Assembly (NCBI RefSeq): GCF_017743735.1
Contig: NZ_JAGHRO010000010.1
Span: 62,001 to 126,000 of the forward strand
Source of the DNA: Shimia sp. R9_2
Lineage (GTDB): Bacteria > Pseudomonadota > Alphaproteobacteria > Rhodobacterales > Rhodobacteraceae
DNA: 64,000 nucleotides
Direction: 5' to 3'
The notes under the pieces are model-generated. The model worked only from the letters and a program-made list of their open reading frames with translations. It made no database searches and was not told the origin of the DNA. The stretch's first letter is position 1; each line of letters opens with the position of its first letter. Below are positions 26,665-64,000 of this stretch, piece after piece. The position numbers were made by a program, and so were the translations under genes.

Positions 26665-28263
26665 CTACTGCAGCCTGACAAGCGTCAGCAGGCTGTCTGA
26701 TGCAGAAAGATAGACCGGCGCCACTACGGTCGTACCCCTGCGAGCCACAACCGAGATTTCTTGGCCTGTTGTCACCTGCACCAAGCGGCGCAATGTGTGA
26801 GAGGCTTCATTGTGGCCATCTGCGTTCCGGATGTAGCCTGTGGAGGTCAAGCCGCCGATGCGTGCACCATTCAAGGCGAAAGACACCTCTGGACCTGCGC
26901 GTTGACCGGAAGAGGTCCCGCGGATCATGGCAGATGCATCAACAACACCGTCGAAATTGCAGATAATCGCATGACCACTAGCCGCTATGCTAAAGTCAGA
27001 TGAAGCAATATCTGCGGCCCATGCAGCGCTAATCAGCAGAAAATCAGTGCTCGAAGTGATGTTTGTATCTGACGTGCCAATAAACTGCGCGAAAGAGGAA
27101 ACGCCAGAACCGCCGCCAGATCCTGCCGGACCGGTATCTCCCTTCAGAGAGGCAAGCCATTCCGCCTCAGTGCCGACAAATCCGTTCGTGACAGCAACCT
27201 CATACGCCGACGCTCCATCATCGCCATCTGTTCCGTTTGTGCCGTTCTGGCCGTCAGCACCCGGCGCGCCATCTGACCCATCTGCCCCCGCCGCCCCGAC
27301 AAGAGACGCCAGCCATTGCGACACTGTGCCAGAGAAACCTTCTGCGACCGCCACCTGATACGCTGATGCACCATCCGAACCTGCCGCGCCATCAACTCCC
27401 GCGGCGCCCTGCGCACCCACGAGCGATGCCAGCCATTGTGACTGCGTTCCGGAGAACCCACCCGAGACAGCCACTTGATAGGCCGAGGCTCCATCTTGGC
27501 CGTCTGCTCCGTCCGAACCGTTCGCCCCGGCGGGTCCAACCAGCGAAGCGAGCCACTGCGTTTGAGTGCCAGAAAACCCTTCAGCTTGCGCGATTTGGAA
27601 GGCGCTATCCCCATCTTGGCCCGCCGCCCCATCCTGTCCGTCAGCACCGACAAGCGAGGCAAGCCATTCCGCTTCCGTTCCCACGAAACCATTTAGGGTC
27701 GCCACCTCATAGGCAGAATTACCATCCTGCCCACTGCCAGAGCCGTCACCCGAAGGCCCTACCAAGGAAGCCAGCCACTGAGCTTCAGTACCTACGAAGC
27801 CGTTTGCCAAGGCAACCTGATAGGCGGACGCGCCATCTGCCCCCACAAGAGAGGTAAGCCAAGCAGCTTCAGACCCAGAGAAACCGCCTGCGACAGCGAT
27901 CTGATATGCCGAAGCCCCGTCTTGGCCATCCACACCATTTGCCCCGCTTGCCCCATCCTGACCGTCAGCCCCCCGCGGACCCTGAAGGGTTGCCAGCCAT
28001 TCCGCCGCCGTCCCGGTGTATCCACCCGCAACCGCGACATCGTAGGCCGACGCTCCATCTGCGCCGGCAGCGCCAACCAAAGAGGCCAACCATTCGGATT
28101 CTGTGCCCACAAAGCCCGCCGCGACCGCGATTTGATATGCGGAGTCTCCGGGATCGCCTTTCGCGCCCGACCCCGACCCACCGTCGCCAGGCACAACAAG
28201 CGGGCTCACCTCGACAACAACTTCAATGGCGCCCTCAACGAGGACTTCTACAACATCGCTCAT
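26665..28263 (-). CDS. Collagen-like repeat protein, probable tail fibre or receptor-binding protein
   Basis: A 532-aa virion-type protein. Residues 39-387 hold nine copies of a unit that starts G-(A/D/N)-S-A-Y, goes on with GFxGTxxxWLASLVG and ends in short Gly-X-Y collagen stretches of varying length. Such units trimerise in phage fibres. The last 145 residues (388-532) form a compact beta-rich domain with no family I recognise and may be the receptor-binding or trimerisation head. The ATG at 28263 overlaps the stop of the upstream small gene (ATGA). It lies after the lysis genes, away from the other tail genes, so a moron-like position is possible. Confidence 0.75.
   Translation of the reverse strand: MSDVVEVLVEGAIEVVVEVSPLVVPGDGGSGSGAKGDPGDSAYQIAVAAGFVGTESEWLASLVGAAGADGASAYDVAVAGGYTGTAAEWLATLQGPRGADGQDGASGANGVDGQDGASAYQIAVAGGFSGSEAAWLTSLVGADGASAYQVALANGFVGTEAQWLASLVGPSGDGSGSGQDGNSAYEVATLNGFVGTEAEWLASLVGADGQDGAAGQDGDSAFQIAQAEGFSGTQTQWLASLVGPAGANGSDGADGQDGASAYQVAVSGGFSGTQSQWLASLVGAQGAAGVDGAAGSDGASAYQVAVAEGFSGTVSQWLASLVGAAGADGSDGAPGADGQNGTNGTDGDDGASAYEVAVTNGFVGTEAEWLASLKGDTGPAGSGGGSGVSSFAQFIGTSDTNITSSTDFLLISAAWAADIASSDFSIAASGHAIICNFDGVVDASAMIRGTSSGQRAGPEVSFALNGARIGGLTSTGYIRNADGHNEASHTLRRLVQVTTGQEISVVARRGTTVVAPVYLSASDSLLTLVRLQ
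27103..28149 (-). repeat. Nine-copy protein-coding repeat array within the collagen-like gene
   Basis: Nine consecutive units of about 30-52 codons, each with the SAYxxAxxxGFxGTxxxWLASLxG core joined by GxDG/GxxG collagen linkers. Nucleotide similarity between units is enough for recombination to change copy number. Confidence 0.85.
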
Positions 28264-58330: not shown

Positions 58331-59303
58331 CCTCCTTACCCACTCCGAAATCATCGACCTACCAGAGGGTGAATTGATCACTGAGCCGGGCTTCTACCGG
58401 ATCAGCTTGGATCGCCACCACAATCAACCATGCGATGGCCCCAGCGTGACCTCTGGCGTGCTGCGCAAGATGGAATTGGAGACGCCCGCAGATGTTTGGG
58501 CGTTCCACAATCTGAACCCCAACCGCTGGGAGCGAGAGGAAACCGTGGCGCTGCGCATGGGGCGTGCGATGGCCTGCTATGTCGAAGGTGGCCCAGAGTT
58601 GCTTGAGACAGAGTTTCGGGTGCTTCCGAAAGACAAGCCAAAGCGGCCCACAGCAGCCCAGCAGACAGCCTATGACGAAGGACGCGGCACTGAGGCAGGC
58701 ATTCGCTCTGTCGAGTTCTGGAAGGCCGTTGAAGAAGACCTGCGCGACATCGTCACTGAAGATGAATGGGATCTGATCTGCACTATGGGAAAGGTTCTTG
58801 CAGCGGACACAGCAGCGTCTGCGGTGATGGATGGCATCCCAGAGGTCAGCATGGCTTGGAAGGATGAAGCCACGGGCATCTGGTGCCTCGCGCGTCCGGA
58901 CACAGTGTCATTCTCCGGTCTGGTCACCGACTACAAGAAGATGGCCACCCGTGGCACCCCGTTTAGTGACCGCTTGGTGGACAGCCGCATCACGCAGCAC
59001 GGCTATGACATGCAGGGAGCCTTTGCCTGTGAGGGCTTTGAGCAGCTGCGTGATGAATGGCCGGGTTTCGGGATCATCGCCCAATGGGACAAAGCCCCTC
59101 ACCACGTGATCCTTCGGGAAATCCCAGACGAAGACCTGCGCATCGGTCAATTCCGCAACCGACGCGCCCTCACCCGCTTTCGTGAATGCCTGGACAGCGG
59201 CCACTGGCCCGGACCCGGCGAAGTCACCGGCGCTTACCAGCGCCCCGCATGGCAGCGCGAGCTGCTGATTGAAGAAATGCAGCAAGGGAACACCGCACCA
59301 TGA
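58323..59303 (+). CDS. RecE-like exonuclease, PD-(D/E)XK fold
   Basis: A 326-aa nuclease expected to resect double-strand ends 5'-3' for single-strand annealing. GPSVTSGVLRKMELETPADVWAFHN at 39-63 and REETVALRMGRAMACYVEGG carry the early His/Glu helix region typical of the YqaJ/RecE-type fold. GIWCLARPDTVSFSGLVTDYKKMAT holds the D-x-K active site. ITQHGYDMQGAFACEGFEQL is the Q-Y motif helix. It overlaps recT (ATGA), the standard phage recombination pair. Confidence 0.85.
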   Translation: MRDLLTHSEIIDLPEGELITEPGFYRISLDRHHNQPCDGPSVTSGVLRKMELETPADVWAFHNLNPNRWEREETVALRMGRAMACYVEGGPELLETEFRVLPKDKPKRPTAAQQTAYDEGRGTEAGIRSVEFWKAVEEDLRDIVTEDEWDLICTMGKVLAADTAASAVMDGIPEVSMAWKDEATGIWCLARPDTVSFSGLVTDYKKMATRGTPFSDRLVDSRITQHGYDMQGAFACEGFEQLRDEWPGFGIIAQWDKAPHHVILREIPDEDLRIGQFRNRRALTRFRECLDSGHWPGPGEVTGAYQRPAWQRELLIEEMQQGNTAP

Positions 59304-60268
59304 ATGAGCAAGTCTCGCACCTCCCCGACCATGTAGCAGCGCCCGCACCGCGCTTTATGGAGAATGCAAAGCACAACAAGGGCGCAATCGCAGCTCTTGT
59401 TCCCGAAAGCTTGGAGGATGTGTTTCGCACCTCAAAAGCTCTCGCAGGCGCTGGCCAGATGGTGCCGGATCATTTCCGAGGCAACCCCGACATGATCATG
59501 GCCGCTATCATGCGCGGCATGGAGATCGGCCTCGCCCCTATGCAGGCGCTCTCCAACATCGCAGTAATTAACGGGCGCGCTTGTATCTGGGGGGATGCTC
59601 TTCCAGCAATGATGCAGCGCGCAGGCCATCACATTGATGTGGTGGTCGAAGGTGAAGGCGATGACATGAAGGCCATCGCCACCTTGGAGCGCGGCGACAC
59701 CGGCAAGGTCATCACTCGTGAATTCTCTATCCGCGATGCTCAGAAAGCCAACCTGACCGGAAAGAAAGGCCCTTGGCAGCAATACCCCAAGCGCATGCTG
59801 ATGCACCGTGCGCGCAGCTGGGCCGTTCGCGACGGGGCGGCAGACGCCCTGATGGGCCTCCAGATCAAAGAGGAGGTCGAAGACTATCAGCCCATGCGTG
59901 ACGTAACGCCTGCGCCTGCCACCGGCACCTTTGCCACCCGCGCAGAAGCCGCCCGCACACAGCCAGAAGCCCCCGCCCTTGAGCAACAACAGACTGTTGA
60001 CCCAATCCAGCAGGAAGAGCGCGAACCAGAACCGGCAGAGACAGCACAAGAGGGCCAAGAGCAGACATTTGACCGCTCTGCCCTCGAACCCCACTGGACC
60101 GACGAATACAGCGCCGATGATGGGTTCCCCGGGTCTGATGAGTTCAATGCTGGCGCGCTCGCTTTTGAGCAAGGCCAGCCTGTCACCGATTGCCCGCATC
60201 AGGAAGAACCGCAGAGCGCATCTGACTGGATCGGCGGCTGGAAGCAAGCACAGAAGGCGGCCAGCTGA
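59300..60268 (+). CDS. RecT family single-strand annealing protein
   Basis: A 322-aa recombinase that anneals complementary strands made by the RecE-like nuclease. LAGAGQMVPDHFRGNPDMIMAAIMRGMEIGLAPMQALSNIAVINGR is the characteristic RecT core. GPWQQYPKRMLMHRARSWAVRDGAADALMGL is the later conserved part. Residues about 210-322 form an acidic, Gln/Pro/Glu-rich tail that likely contacts SSB or the nuclease. The stop overlaps the HNH gene start by one base. Confidence 0.9.
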   Translation: MNEQVSHLPDHVAAPAPRFMENAKHNKGAIAALVPESLEDVFRTSKALAGAGQMVPDHFRGNPDMIMAAIMRGMEIGLAPMQALSNIAVINGRACIWGDALPAMMQRAGHHIDVVVEGEGDDMKAIATLERGDTGKVITREFSIRDAQKANLTGKKGPWQQYPKRMLMHRARSWAVRDGAADALMGLQIKEEVEDYQPMRDVTPAPATGTFATRAEAARTQPEAPALEQQQTVDPIQQEEREPEPAETAQEGQEQTFDRSALEPHWTDEYSADDGFPGSDEFNAGALAFEQGQPVTDCPHQEEPQSASDWIGGWKQAQKAAS

Positions 60269-61170: not shown

Positions 61171-62463
61171 TTGATCGGCATGACGATGTGTTCCGGCATT
61201 GGCGCACCCGAAGTGGCCGCCCCTTGGGTCGATTGGCGCTTTGCCAGCGAGATTGAGGCATTCCCGCGGGAAGTGTTGCAACAACGCTTGGGTTACAAGC
61301 TGCCAGAGGATCAGAACCAAGGCGAACCCCTGCTTTGGGGTGATATGACCGAAATCACACCGGATCTGCTGCGCGCGAATGGTATCCCCCTTCCCGATCT
61401 CATTGTTGCCGGCACACCGTGTCAGGCGTTCTCTATCGCTGGCCTGCGCAAAGGCACCGCCGACGAACGCGGCAACTTAACTCTGAAATTCGTGGAGATC
61501 TGCCATGACATCGTCGCTGCTCGACCTGATGGAAAGCTCGCTGTGCTCTGGGAAAACGTCCCCGGCGTCCTCTCTGACAAAGGAAATGCCTTTGGGTGTT
61601 TCTTGGGAGGCCTTGTCGGCGCAGTGGATGCATTGCAGCCGCCTGGAGACGGAAGCTGGCCCGGTGAAGGTATGGTGCAGGGGCCAAGGGCACGGGCTGC
61701 ATGGTGCGTTCTTGACGCACAGTGGTTCGGAGTGGCGCAGCGGCGCCGTCGCGTGTTCGTTGTCGTCGATTTTGGAAACTGCATCGATCCCGCAGCGATA
61801 CTACTTGAGCCAGACCGCCTGCGCGGGAATACTCCGCCGCGCCGAGAGACGGGGAAAGGACCTGCCCGAGGCTTTGAAACTGGCCCTCACGGCGGTGGCT
61901 TCGCAGAAGTCGCCCCAACCCTAGACACATCCTGCAAAGATGGTCCTGTTAGAGCGCAGATCGGGGCGGGGGTGATCACCGCCCGAATGACCGCATTCGG
62001 AGAGTACGCTTGTGATGGTACCGCCAGCACAGTTAAGCAGCGCGACTTCAAAGACGCCACTGATTTGGTCGTCGGAGCAACCGGAAGAGTCACCCACGCG
62101 CTGACCGCCGAGGGCCATGACGCAAGCGAAGACGGCACTGGGCGCGGCACCCCTGTCGTGGCCTTCGACACTACACAGATCACCAGCCCACAAAACGTCA
62201 GTAATCCGAAACCCGGCGATGCGTGTCACCCCTTAGCGGCAGGAGCCCATCCGCCCGCACTGTTCCTACCCGCCGTGCGCCGCCTAGCACCCACCGAATG
62301 CCACCGCTTGCAAGGCTTCCCCGACGATTGGTGCGCGATCACACGAAAGGGCAAACCTGCCGCTGACGGACCGCAATACAAAGCTCTTAGCAACAGCATG
62401 GCCGTGCCAGTCATCGCGTGGATACTCGATCGCCTGCGCGTGAGCTGGGAGCAACACAGTTAA
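61171..62463 (+). CDS. DNA cytosine-5 methyltransferase
   Basis: A 430-aa C5 methyltransferase. Motif I is MCSGIGAPEVAAPWVDW, the catalytic PCQ is at 83-85 (VAGTPCQAFSIAGLR), motif VI is WENVPG and motif VIII is FGVAQRRRRVFVV. After a long target-recognition stretch (about 220-370) motif IX/X follows (RRLAPTECHRLQGFPDDW, YKALSNSMAVPVIAWI). The start is a TTG at 61171 or an ATG at 61180. It probably protects phage DNA from host restriction. No cognate nuclease is next to it, so it is an orphan enzyme. Confidence 0.93.
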   Translation: MIGMTMCSGIGAPEVAAPWVDWRFASEIEAFPREVLQQRLGYKLPEDQNQGEPLLWGDMTEITPDLLRANGIPLPDLIVAGTPCQAFSIAGLRKGTADERGNLTLKFVEICHDIVAARPDGKLAVLWENVPGVLSDKGNAFGCFLGGLVGAVDALQPPGDGSWPGEGMVQGPRARAAWCVLDAQWFGVAQRRRRVFVVVDFGNCIDPAAILLEPDRLRGNTPPRRETGKGPARGFETGPHGGGFAEVAPTLDTSCKDGPVRAQIGAGVITARMTAFGEYACDGTASTVKQRDFKDATDLVVGATGRVTHALTAEGHDASEDGTGRGTPVVAFDTTQITSPQNVSNPKPGDACHPLAAGAHPPALFLPAVRRLAPTECHRLQGFPDDWCAITRKGKPAADGPQYKALSNSMAVPVIAWILDRLRVSWEQHS

Positions 62464-62544: not shown

Positions 62545-62733
62545 ATGATCGAAGTTTTGCTAACCACAGGCGTCTGGGTCTGTGTCTACGAAGATGAAAA
62601 CCTTACAACTGAAGAGCTTTCCGAGGAGGCCAACGACAGCGACCTGAAAGTCGGCACGCTTCATATCGCGGAGCTTCCAGATCAAACAAAAGTTGATTGC
62701 TCTAAAATCGCAGCAATCCGGTTCAACGCATGA
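62545..62733 (+). CDS. Small acidic phage protein (62 aa), unknown
   Basis: Reads MIEVLLTTGVWVCVYEDENL, then TTEELSEEANDSDLKVGTLH and ends KIAAIRFNA. The ATG at 62545 follows GGAGAGAGACGG. The stop overlaps the first minigene copy (ATGA), starting a chain of five such overlaps. No domain recognised. Confidence 0.65.
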   Translation: MIEVLLTTGVWVCVYEDENLTTEELSEEANDSDLKVGTLHIAELPDQTKVDCSKIAAIRFNA

Positions 62734-62795
62734 TCGCCACCATCACCATAGGCAAAGAAGGCCACCACAGCGTTCAGGGGGAGGTATCCGCATGA
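62730..62795 (+). CDS. 21-aa minigene, copy 1
   Basis: A 21-codon frame (begins MIATITIGKEG, ends GEVSA) linked by ATGA overlaps to the gene before and the gene after. A GGGGGAGG near its end is the ribosome site of the next gene. The same peptide is encoded again at 63660-63725 with two base changes, both synonymous. It may be a coupling leader or a functional peptide. Confidence 0.55.
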   Translation: MIATITIGKEGHHSVQGEVSA

Positions 62796-63241
62796 AAAAG
62801 TTCAACACCCACATCAAAGACCGCCACTTTCAGGAGATCCACCATGCATTGGGCTGCCCTTGGCCTGAAGAGGTCATGGGTGAAACCTACCGCAACTATT
62901 TCGCGGTGGGAGAATGCTCGGACATCGCAAAGCGCATGAAAGCCTCTCCACATTGGTCTGACGGCTGCTTCCGGTTTGGGAACCTGTCATTCTCTGTAAC
63001 GACCGCAGGTCGCAAGGCCCTCTATGAATACATGACAGCGTCCCTCTATGTGCCTGCGCGCTTCGCGATCACCTTCCACCGCTATGAAGGCGAAATGGTA
63101 GTATCGGCCAAGTCGCGCTCCGCCGCAAAATATCGGGCGTATCTGAACAGTGATACCGATACGCCGTTTGGCGAGTTCGTTTCTGAAATCAAGTCAGTGA
63201 AGATCCGCAGCCGCGCGATCAACCCGGAGCTGGCGGCATGA
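62792..63241 (+). CDS. Phage protein of unknown function (149 aa)
   Basis: Starts MKKFNTHIKDRHFQEIHHAL, with Cys/His-containing segments (HALGCPWPEEVMGETYRNYF, SDGCFRFGNLSFSVTTAGRK) and a C-terminal part SAKSRSAAKYRAYLNSDTDTPFGEFV. I do not recognise the family. The gene lies between minigene copy 1 and the ASCH gene, with ATGA overlaps on both sides. Confidence 0.65.
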   Translation: MKKFNTHIKDRHFQEIHHALGCPWPEEVMGETYRNYFAVGECSDIAKRMKASPHWSDGCFRFGNLSFSVTTAGRKALYEYMTASLYVPARFAITFHRYEGEMVVSAKSRSAAKYRAYLNSDTDTPFGEFVSEIKSVKIRSRAINPELAA

Positions 63242-63663
63242 TCCACCCAGACCTCCCCCTCAAAGCCCTATCGATCCGCCAGCCTTGGGCATGGGCGATC
63301 ATAAACGCGGGCAAGAACATCGAGAACAGGCCCCGCCGCTTTCACTACCGTGGGCCGATCTGCATTCATGCCAGCCGGTACGAACCCACCGCAGAGGACA
63401 AGCGGGTGTATCTTGAAACGGCAGTAGCGGCATACCCCAACTTTCGCGAATTCGTGGAAATTTGCCGATCTTCTAAGGGAGAGATTAAGGGCGGCATCAT
63501 CGGCACCGCTGAAATCGTTGACTGCATCGATCAGAGCGACAGCCCGTGGTTCTTCGGCCCCTATGGTCTGGTGTTGGAGAACGTGACGCCAGTGGACTTC
63601 ATCCCGGTCAAAGGCGCGCTCGGGCTGTTTGACTGGCGCAAGAAGCTGGAGGCCGCCGCATGA
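63238..63663 (+). CDS. ASCH domain protein
   Basis: A 141-aa RNA-binding-type PUA-like domain. LKALSIRQPWAWAIINAGKNIENRPRRFHYRGPICIHASRYEP is the ASCH signature, with the end VKGALGLFDWRKK. Known ASCH enzymes include an amidohydrolase acting on N4-acetylcytidine and RNA-binding proteins. In phages they are common in accessory early regions without a proven role. ATGA overlaps join it to both neighbours. Confidence 0.85.
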   Translation: MIHPDLPLKALSIRQPWAWAIINAGKNIENRPRRFHYRGPICIHASRYEPTAEDKRVYLETAVAAYPNFREFVEICRSSKGEIKGGIIGTAEIVDCIDQSDSPWFFGPYGLVLENVTPVDFIPVKGALGLFDWRKKLEAAA

Positions 63664-63725
63664 TCGCCACCATCACCATAGGCAAAGAAGGCCACCACAG
63701 CGTGCAGGGCGAGGTATCCGCATGA
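63658..63725 (+). repeat. Second copy of a 68-bp direct repeat (first copy 62728-62795)
   Basis: The two stretches agree at 66 of 68 positions. Both start at CGCATGATCGCC and end at GTATCCGCATGA. The differences are T/G and G/C in third codon positions of the minigene (Val and Gly codons). Confidence 0.92.
63660..63725 (+). CDS. 21-aa minigene, copy 2
   Basis: Encodes exactly the same 21-residue peptide as 62730-62795. It overlaps the ASCH stop by four bases and the next ATG by four bases. Its inner GGGCGAGG is the ribosome site of the following gene, weaker than in copy 1. Confidence 0.55.
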   Translation: MIATITIGKEGHHSVQGEVSA

Positions 63726-64000
63726 CCGGCTCCAAAGAGTGCAATCACGAACACGGCGCAAAGATCGACGCACTAGACTGCTGGGTCTGTGGCGTGTGCT
63801 TTGAGATGCTAGAAACCCGCCCAGTTAAGTATGGCGCTGGATGCAAAAATATACGTGGCGCTGATGGGCCTGGTGGGCATCCTCAAATTGTTACATGGGA
63901 GGCCGAGATTAGGAAGTCTCGCGAAGGGACTACGCTCAACTCGTTTCTTGCAGCCATGGCCCGCCGCTTCATGTCTCGCGCCAAAGGGCTTGACCCGCGG
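63722..64000 (+). CDS. Cys/His-rich phage protein (partial, 3' end off the right edge)
   Basis: At least 93 codons from ATG 63722. Reads MTGSKECNHEHGAKIDALDC, then WVCGVCFEMLETRP, with a possible zinc site (CNHEH and CWVCGVC). Later parts are basic (MARRFMSRAKGL). The gene continues past the window. Family unknown. Confidence 0.65.
   Translation, partial: MTGSKECNHEHGAKIDALDCWVCGVCFEMLETRPVKYGAGCKNIRGADGPGGHPQIVTWEAEIRKSREGTTLNSFLAAMARRFMSRAKGLDPR

Follow-up and report, generated by a model that had tools for sequence, protein, structure and literature searches.

The element described here belongs to a Rhodobacteraceae-type prophage in Shimia sp. R9_2, where it sits in a same-strand early gene run with a RecT-like gene on one side and the integrase on the other; the named relatives of the prophage's genes belong to the Rhodobacterales. 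The window, meaning the whole 64,000-nt stretch of DNA that was analysed (C1:62001-126000 of a 4.47-Mb assembly in 25 contigs), ends inside this run. Unless noted otherwise, positions are those of the window and features are on the plus strand. The RecT-like gene (59300-60268; phrog_561, E 7e-41) encodes a single-strand annealing protein, a candidate agent of short-homology recombination, and is followed by an HNH-like gene starting at 60268 and a DNA cytosine methyltransferase-like gene (61171-62463), both recognised by eye. Next comes an open reading frame of 62 aa (62545-62733), for which no match was found in Pfam, PHROGs or NCBIfam at E≤1. It precedes the first copy of the element, the 149-aa gene (62792-63241), the ASCH-type gene (63238-63663), the second copy of the element and a 143-aa gene, which starts at 63722 and continues past the window end at 64000. 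The 149-aa gene has a weak match to phrog_13561 (E 0.0016), and its homologues are found in Paracoccus phage Psul1 (56%), Phaeobacter inhibens pP88_h and others. The ASCH-type gene matches phrog_3193 (E 1.3e-45), several of its phage relatives are annotated as ASCH, and against the Pfam ASCH model it scores 12.7 bits, under the cut-off of 21.2. For the 143-aa gene we found no relative in the viral contigs, in the 25 genus genomes (1/25, its own only) or in the family libraries searched.

Beyond the window, at the equivalent of position 64150, the run continues with an 87-aa gene. It is followed by matches to dATP/dGTP pyrophosphohydrolase (Pfam E 9.5e-13) and to excisionase (E 0.008), and then by the integrase (E 1.3e-33). 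The 87-aa gene (L003:8150-8413, 150 nt past the window end) combines the small domain described below with a Cys-rich tail (CSYC...C) and lies directly 5' of the pyrophosphohydrolase-like gene. Just beyond the integrase end of the prophage there is also a reverse-transcriptase-like frame of 622 aa on the minus strand (L003:11974-13842), with an FMDD motif seen by eye.

The element itself is a 69-nt direct repeat, with copy 1 at 62727-62795 and copy 2 at 63657-63725 (spacing 930 nt). Each copy contains an ORF of 21 codons (62730-62795 and 63660-63725), and both ORFs encode the same peptide, MIATITIGKEGHHSVQGEVSA. The copies are identical at 67 of 69 bases (97%), and the two differences, T at 62774 versus G at 63704 (GTT/GTG) and G at 62780 versus C at 63710 (GGG/GGC), are both silent. 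The first-pass annotation of this DNA had reported a 68-bp repeat that encodes one peptide twice with two silent differences, and this was borne out, the leading C bringing the length to 69 nt. Outside the copies, identity falls to 5 of 30 bases upstream and 11 of 30 downstream, so the repeat ends at gene borders. A repeat finder applied to the window (minimum length 30, seed 14) returned, with the same settings, three other direct-repeat families, all 66-78% alike. An 86-nt unit is present eight times at 27140-28158, with copies 66-71% identical to the reference copy.

Both copies are joined to their neighbours by ATGA overlaps, copy 1 with the 62-aa and 149-aa genes and copy 2 with the ASCH-type and 143-aa genes. 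These overlaps with the genes before and after, and the arrangement in which the pair of copies flanks two complete genes (149-aa and ASCH-type), had been proposed from the start and hold at both copies. We also considered the junction sequence CGCATGA, which bounds both copies, as something special to the element, yet it is not enriched (19 occurrences in the window versus 18.4 expected) and this idea was dropped.

In agreement with a further claim of that annotation, the element supplies the ribosome site of the gene that follows it. The Shine-Dalgarno (SD) sequence of the 149-aa gene, GGAGG at 62780-62784, lies inside copy 1 (predicted duplex -12.4 kcal/mol), and that of the 143-aa gene, a weakened CGAGG at 63710-63714, lies inside copy 2 (-8.7 kcal/mol), both energies being calculated with what we take to be the anti-SD sequence. 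The silent C at 63710 alters the first G of GGAGG, and the predicted duplex of the 143-aa gene is therefore the weaker one. In the element copies the SD stands 7 nt from the ATG of the next gene, and the only evident ribosome site of that gene is the one inside the copy. As for the minigene, its own SD is poor in copy 1 (-2.9 kcal/mol) and good in copy 2 (-9.3 kcal/mol).

How much can be drawn from the two silent differences was estimated by enumeration. Among the single changes possible in the minigene, 43 of 189 are silent, which gives a chance of 0.052 that two random changes are both silent, or 0.036 if transversions only are counted. With a chance of about 0.05, the silent pattern is a weak argument for a selected peptide; the first-pass annotation had itself called it suggestive and not proof.

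In the searches made, full-length copies of the element were confined to this prophage. Searched with the 69-nt DNA at E≤0.01, 31 of 394 family genomes gave matches, at full length in its own genome only, the remaining 30 matching partially over 18-44 query bases. At E≤0.001, matches in the 25 genus genomes were limited to its own genome and a second one, G406 (28 query bases). The single stretch with the 69-nt element in the viral contigs was the same prophage, identical across the 11,479 bases compared, and two viral scans with the 149-aa and 143-aa genes recovered only this prophage plus one weak relative. None of the GTDB contigs carried the back-translated pattern of 13 residues, phage records yielded nine short DNA matches at E 1-5 and none by protein, and no search, be it of phages, viral contigs, GTDB or the family, recovered a homologous full-length 21-aa peptide. 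Related phages had been named as the place to look for further copies of the element; in the searches made, no second full-length homologous copy appeared. The neighbourhood of the ASCH-type gene was followed in the same way: 212 relatives were found, 80 were kept and 16 besides its own were examined for neighbours, and the minigene unit stood beside the ASCH gene in 0 of these 16 other viral contigs. We found no sister prophage without the two-gene block or with an exchanged arrangement.

The start of the minigene pointed to a possible origin. The pattern M-I-x-T-I-T-[IVM]-G has 25 matches in 22 of the 394 family genomes, and the reversed pattern has none. By translation, the 25 matches comprise the two minigenes, eight copies of a small protein of about 45 aa with the consensus MIRTITIGSCVSIQG.FVR.L.NG.I.VRVG...F.G.PV, and 15 unrelated short frames. 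At E≤0.01, a profile built from the eight small proteins (A1; the family is uncurated) matches 265 of the 394 family genomes, and each genome of the genus (25 of 25) has one copy at E 6.1e-17 or better. One family member compared with Pfam and PHROGs, and four compared with NCBIfam, gave no match at E≤1; a small-protein family this widespread in one bacterial family, whose tested members match no library model searched, is of interest in its own right. A profile scan of the 80 kept ASCH loci and of later loci placed the small family in this prophage only. In the host genome, A1 ranks a chromosomal copy first (3e-20), then the 87-aa gene (7e-4), then the minigenes (0.197 each, not significant alone), with the next match at 1.9. 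The 87-aa gene (match at contig positions 126168-126266) is a third, longer member in the element's gene run.

Other members of the family occupy different surroundings. The host's own chromosomal member (G000:C11:212274-212405; L177, L210) lies between mutT-like and infB-like genes, identified by eye. The small domain is also present near the start of 20 long frames of 383-593 codons (second matches, including L350 and L351); in L350 and L351 it is followed by a signal-peptide-like stretch and a sulfate-binding-protein-like protein, again by eye, and a plasmid relative (CP155825) is annotated as a sulfate ABC transporter substrate-binding protein.

The minigene and the ~45-aa family have in common an N-terminal MIxTIT[IV]G and then VQG. 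The stretch MIATITIG...SVQG of the minigene aligns with A1 positions 1-15/16, and the peptide resembles the first ~17 family residues. The minigene departs from the family by two additional residues in a loop and by the absence of the C-terminal half, GxIxVRVGxxxFxGxPV; its peptide ends after SVQGEVSA. When 16,153 start-anchored ORF beginnings, a background made up mostly of DNA flanking family members and not of whole genomes, were scored with A1, 166 were at or above the minigene's 18.5 bits; 164 of these fall in family-member frames, and the remaining two are this minigene and one in G406. The best unrelated start reached 10.2 bits, and a 10.9-bit match overlaps the G406 minigene. A second profile, made from 52 members, agrees with A1 on the ORF-start scores. 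In a set of loci selected with the MIxTITxG pattern, the minigene scored 17.1 bits and a chance frame slightly more, 17.5 bits.

The G406 minigene is a second truncated copy, a frame of 19 codons, MIKTITIGTLIATQEHRHD, in a prophage of the same genus. Before it come a gene recognised by eye as methyltransferase-like and a match to PAPS reductase (phrog_424, E 8.7e-42); it overlaps the start of the next gene, and downstream lie genes that look by eye like those of an excisionase and an integrase. Full-length members lie just 5' of integrase-like genes in two more genomes of the genus, G401 and G410 (neighbours by eye), and members beginning MIATITIG... are also present in an IMG/VR contig (L293) and in a stretch of genome that looks phage-like by eye (L132). 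Taking these findings together, the minigene probably descends from the ~45-aa family by loss of the C-terminal half.

An AlphaFold model of a 42-aa family member, obtained from a four-row alignment (A2), predicts four strands (residues 2-7, 11-20, 26-30 and 33-39) with a mean pLDDT of 93, and the minigene covers strand 1 and part of strand 2 of this predicted fold. A fold search of the PDB gave Hfq-like structures as the best match, at E 0.36 at best, and the family profile against PDB sequences reached E 0.13 at best; the fold match is not significant. Judging from the model, it seems unlikely that the stub folds and functions in the way family members do.

The 149-aa gene offered a second line of comparison. 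Six other non-redundant loci of this gene were available, from Marinibacterium profundimaris, Paracoccus sulfuroxidans/phage Psul1, Chachezhania sediminis (a shorter frame), Phaeobacter inhibens pP88_h and two IMG/VR contigs; three further entries were the same loci in another collection, and one was this prophage. The minigene is present at none of the six. Three of them have an unrelated direct repeat, with one copy across the ribosome site of the 149-aa gene and another across that of the next gene. The Marinibacterium repeat is 21 nt long; the whole genome has just three occurrences of its core, one ahead of each of three successive genes. The Psul1 repeat has 14 nt (15 with the overlap A), and the pP88_h repeat 11 nt. 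The core of the latter, CTTTGATGGA, is present in four places, each 17-20 nt ahead of a frame; three of these frames have annotated starts and one is unannotated. At the remaining three loci only 5-7 nt are common to both ribosome sites. Among 479 pairs of adjacent genes taken from 78 loci as background, 12 reach 11 nt, which gives a binomial P of 3e-4 against 3 of 6 in a comparison made post hoc, on six loci and with a looser next-gene rule for the six than for the background.

Near-identical start linkers of the CCAGCTAACCC..GAGGC type occur three times in the Marinibacterium prophage (L391:2979-3860), each before a frame, and another viral contig (L051, minus strand) has three slightly varied linkers of this type, again each before a frame. 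In the viral contigs the Marinibacterium-type start linker was found in 14 stretches, two of them with more than one copy. With two mismatches allowed, a reversed control pattern matched the Marinibacterium genome twice as well; none of the three real copies contains a mismatch.

As a general rule, the notion that genes with ATGA at both ends share junction sequence did not stand. In the discovery set, 4 of 181 ATGA-bounded genes share at least 8 junction bases (0.05 expected), and one of the four (L365) is, by eye, a row of acetyltransferase-like paralogues. At the same threshold none of 269 genes did so in nine held-out phage genomes, and the rule was not replicated; at 4 bases or more there were 8 such genes in the held-out phages versus 2.9 expected (P 0.01).

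The best reading of the element is that it is a coding version of the start-associated repeats of phages, duplicated with or around a two-gene block. On balance we put even weight for and against the fuller proposal, in which the element is the stub of a truncated small-protein gene that has been duplicated and reused as a translation-coupling linker at gene starts. First, as the similarity suggests, a prophage-borne member of the ~45-aa family would have lost its C-terminal part, leaving the codons for MI-TITIG...SVQG and then a good SD and an ATGA overlap with the next gene. The 69-nt unit, which is now seen in two copies, would then have been copied with, or around, the pair of 149-aa and ASCH genes, possibly by short-homology recombination between ATGA junctions and perhaps with the aid of the phage's RecT-like protein. 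Ribosomes finishing the upstream gene would translate the short frame and reach the next start, where the SD and the overlap are in place; by delivering ribosomes to that start, the unit would act as a translation-coupling ribosome site. The peptide itself would probably have little function. The first-pass annotation had left the choice between a reusable coupling cassette and a small functional peptide. The cassette has gained from indirect evidence, namely the SD, the overlap, the duplication at gene borders and the other repeats at three of the six loci; the peptide has lost ground, both differences being silent by chance some 5% of the time and the sequence looking like an N-terminal stub.

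Three other explanations were weighed. The copies could be neutral leftovers of duplication or recombination, with the SD and the overlap incidental to a dense operon, which we regard as somewhat unlikely. Copies that are 97% alike in a single lineage, a CGCATGA junction no more frequent than expected and relatives of both enclosed genes that do without the element (16 ASCH loci and six loci of the 149-aa gene) speak for this; against it, each copy holds the one ribosome site evident for the gene that follows, and identity ends at the gene borders. A functional micropeptide, that is, a 21-aa peptide kept twice for a role of its own, with the linker role secondary, is in our opinion distinctly unlikely. 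Both differences are silent, both frames are intact (start, stop and overlaps) and the minigene's own SD in copy 2 is good; against this, two silent changes have a chance of 0.05, the minigene's own SD in copy 1 is poor, a homologous full-length peptide was absent from every collection searched and most of the predicted fold is missing. Finally, a mobile recombination linker, in which the unit would be a landing site for the exchange of gene modules and DNA homology, not translation, would matter, has in its favour the RecT-like protein in the same gene run and, at ribosome sites of the 149-aa gene, the direct repeats of Psul1 (15 nt if the overlap is counted), of pP88_h (ahead of four starts) and of Marinibacterium (21 nt, at three genes in a row), but appears improbable given that no prophage with an empty or exchanged arrangement was found, that the ASCH genes of 16 other viral contigs lack such a unit and that the junction-repeat rule failed at 8 bases or more in the held-out phages.

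A reused stub that couples translation could be one case of something wider. Rhodobacterales phages might assemble their accessory operons from gene units, with lineage-specific start-associated repeats marking the additions; the 149-aa gene would then have been added repeatedly with different repeats, and here the repeat would be a translated stub, coupling translation and at the same time offering homology at which a further gene could insert. We offer this as a speculation that is rather unlikely to hold as a whole. How a new gene in a phage operon obtains a working ribosome site is seldom visible, though genes are gained constantly; a near-identical coding unit on either side of a two-gene block, together with the other start-associated repeats around relatives of the 149-aa gene, would make gene-by-gene growth of an operon directly testable.

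In other phages, boundary sequences and mobile regulatory cassettes have been proposed as sites of gene-module exchange. T4-type phages reportedly have mobile regulatory cassettes (PeaT, an early promoter with a terminator; the work is said to be that of Arbiol et al. in 2010) that are thought to help gene shuffling. Like the PeaT cassettes as reported, the element is a small repeated unit between accessory genes; unlike them, since those are transcription elements, it is a coding unit that overlaps its neighbours. Our search for Rhodobacterales-specific literature on the subject returned none, which is no proof of absence. The passages on Start Associated Sequences (SAS/ESAS) in the cluster K mycobacteriophage paper (PMC3203893) describe a 13-bp consensus, GGGATAGGAGCCC, in 11-19 copies per genome. 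It occupies the position of the ribosome site, a few bases ahead of the start codons of various genes, in that half of the genome where the non-structural genes lie, and it may take in the upstream stop codon. The element is similar to the SAS so described in that its copies are repeated just before the starts of different genes (149-aa and 143-aa), and it differs in having 69 nt, two copies, a complete open frame and a sequence unlike GGGATAGGAGCCC. The axe-txe operon likewise has a tiny ORF ahead of a gene: according to PMC8708949, the two-codon minigene mg2 acts in cis and raises the translation of the next gene, an effect tested there. Compared with mg2, the minigene has 21 codons and not two, is repeated, and is known here from sequence alone. 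The element resembles SAS, PeaT and mg2 not in sequence but in its position and in the role that it may plausibly play.
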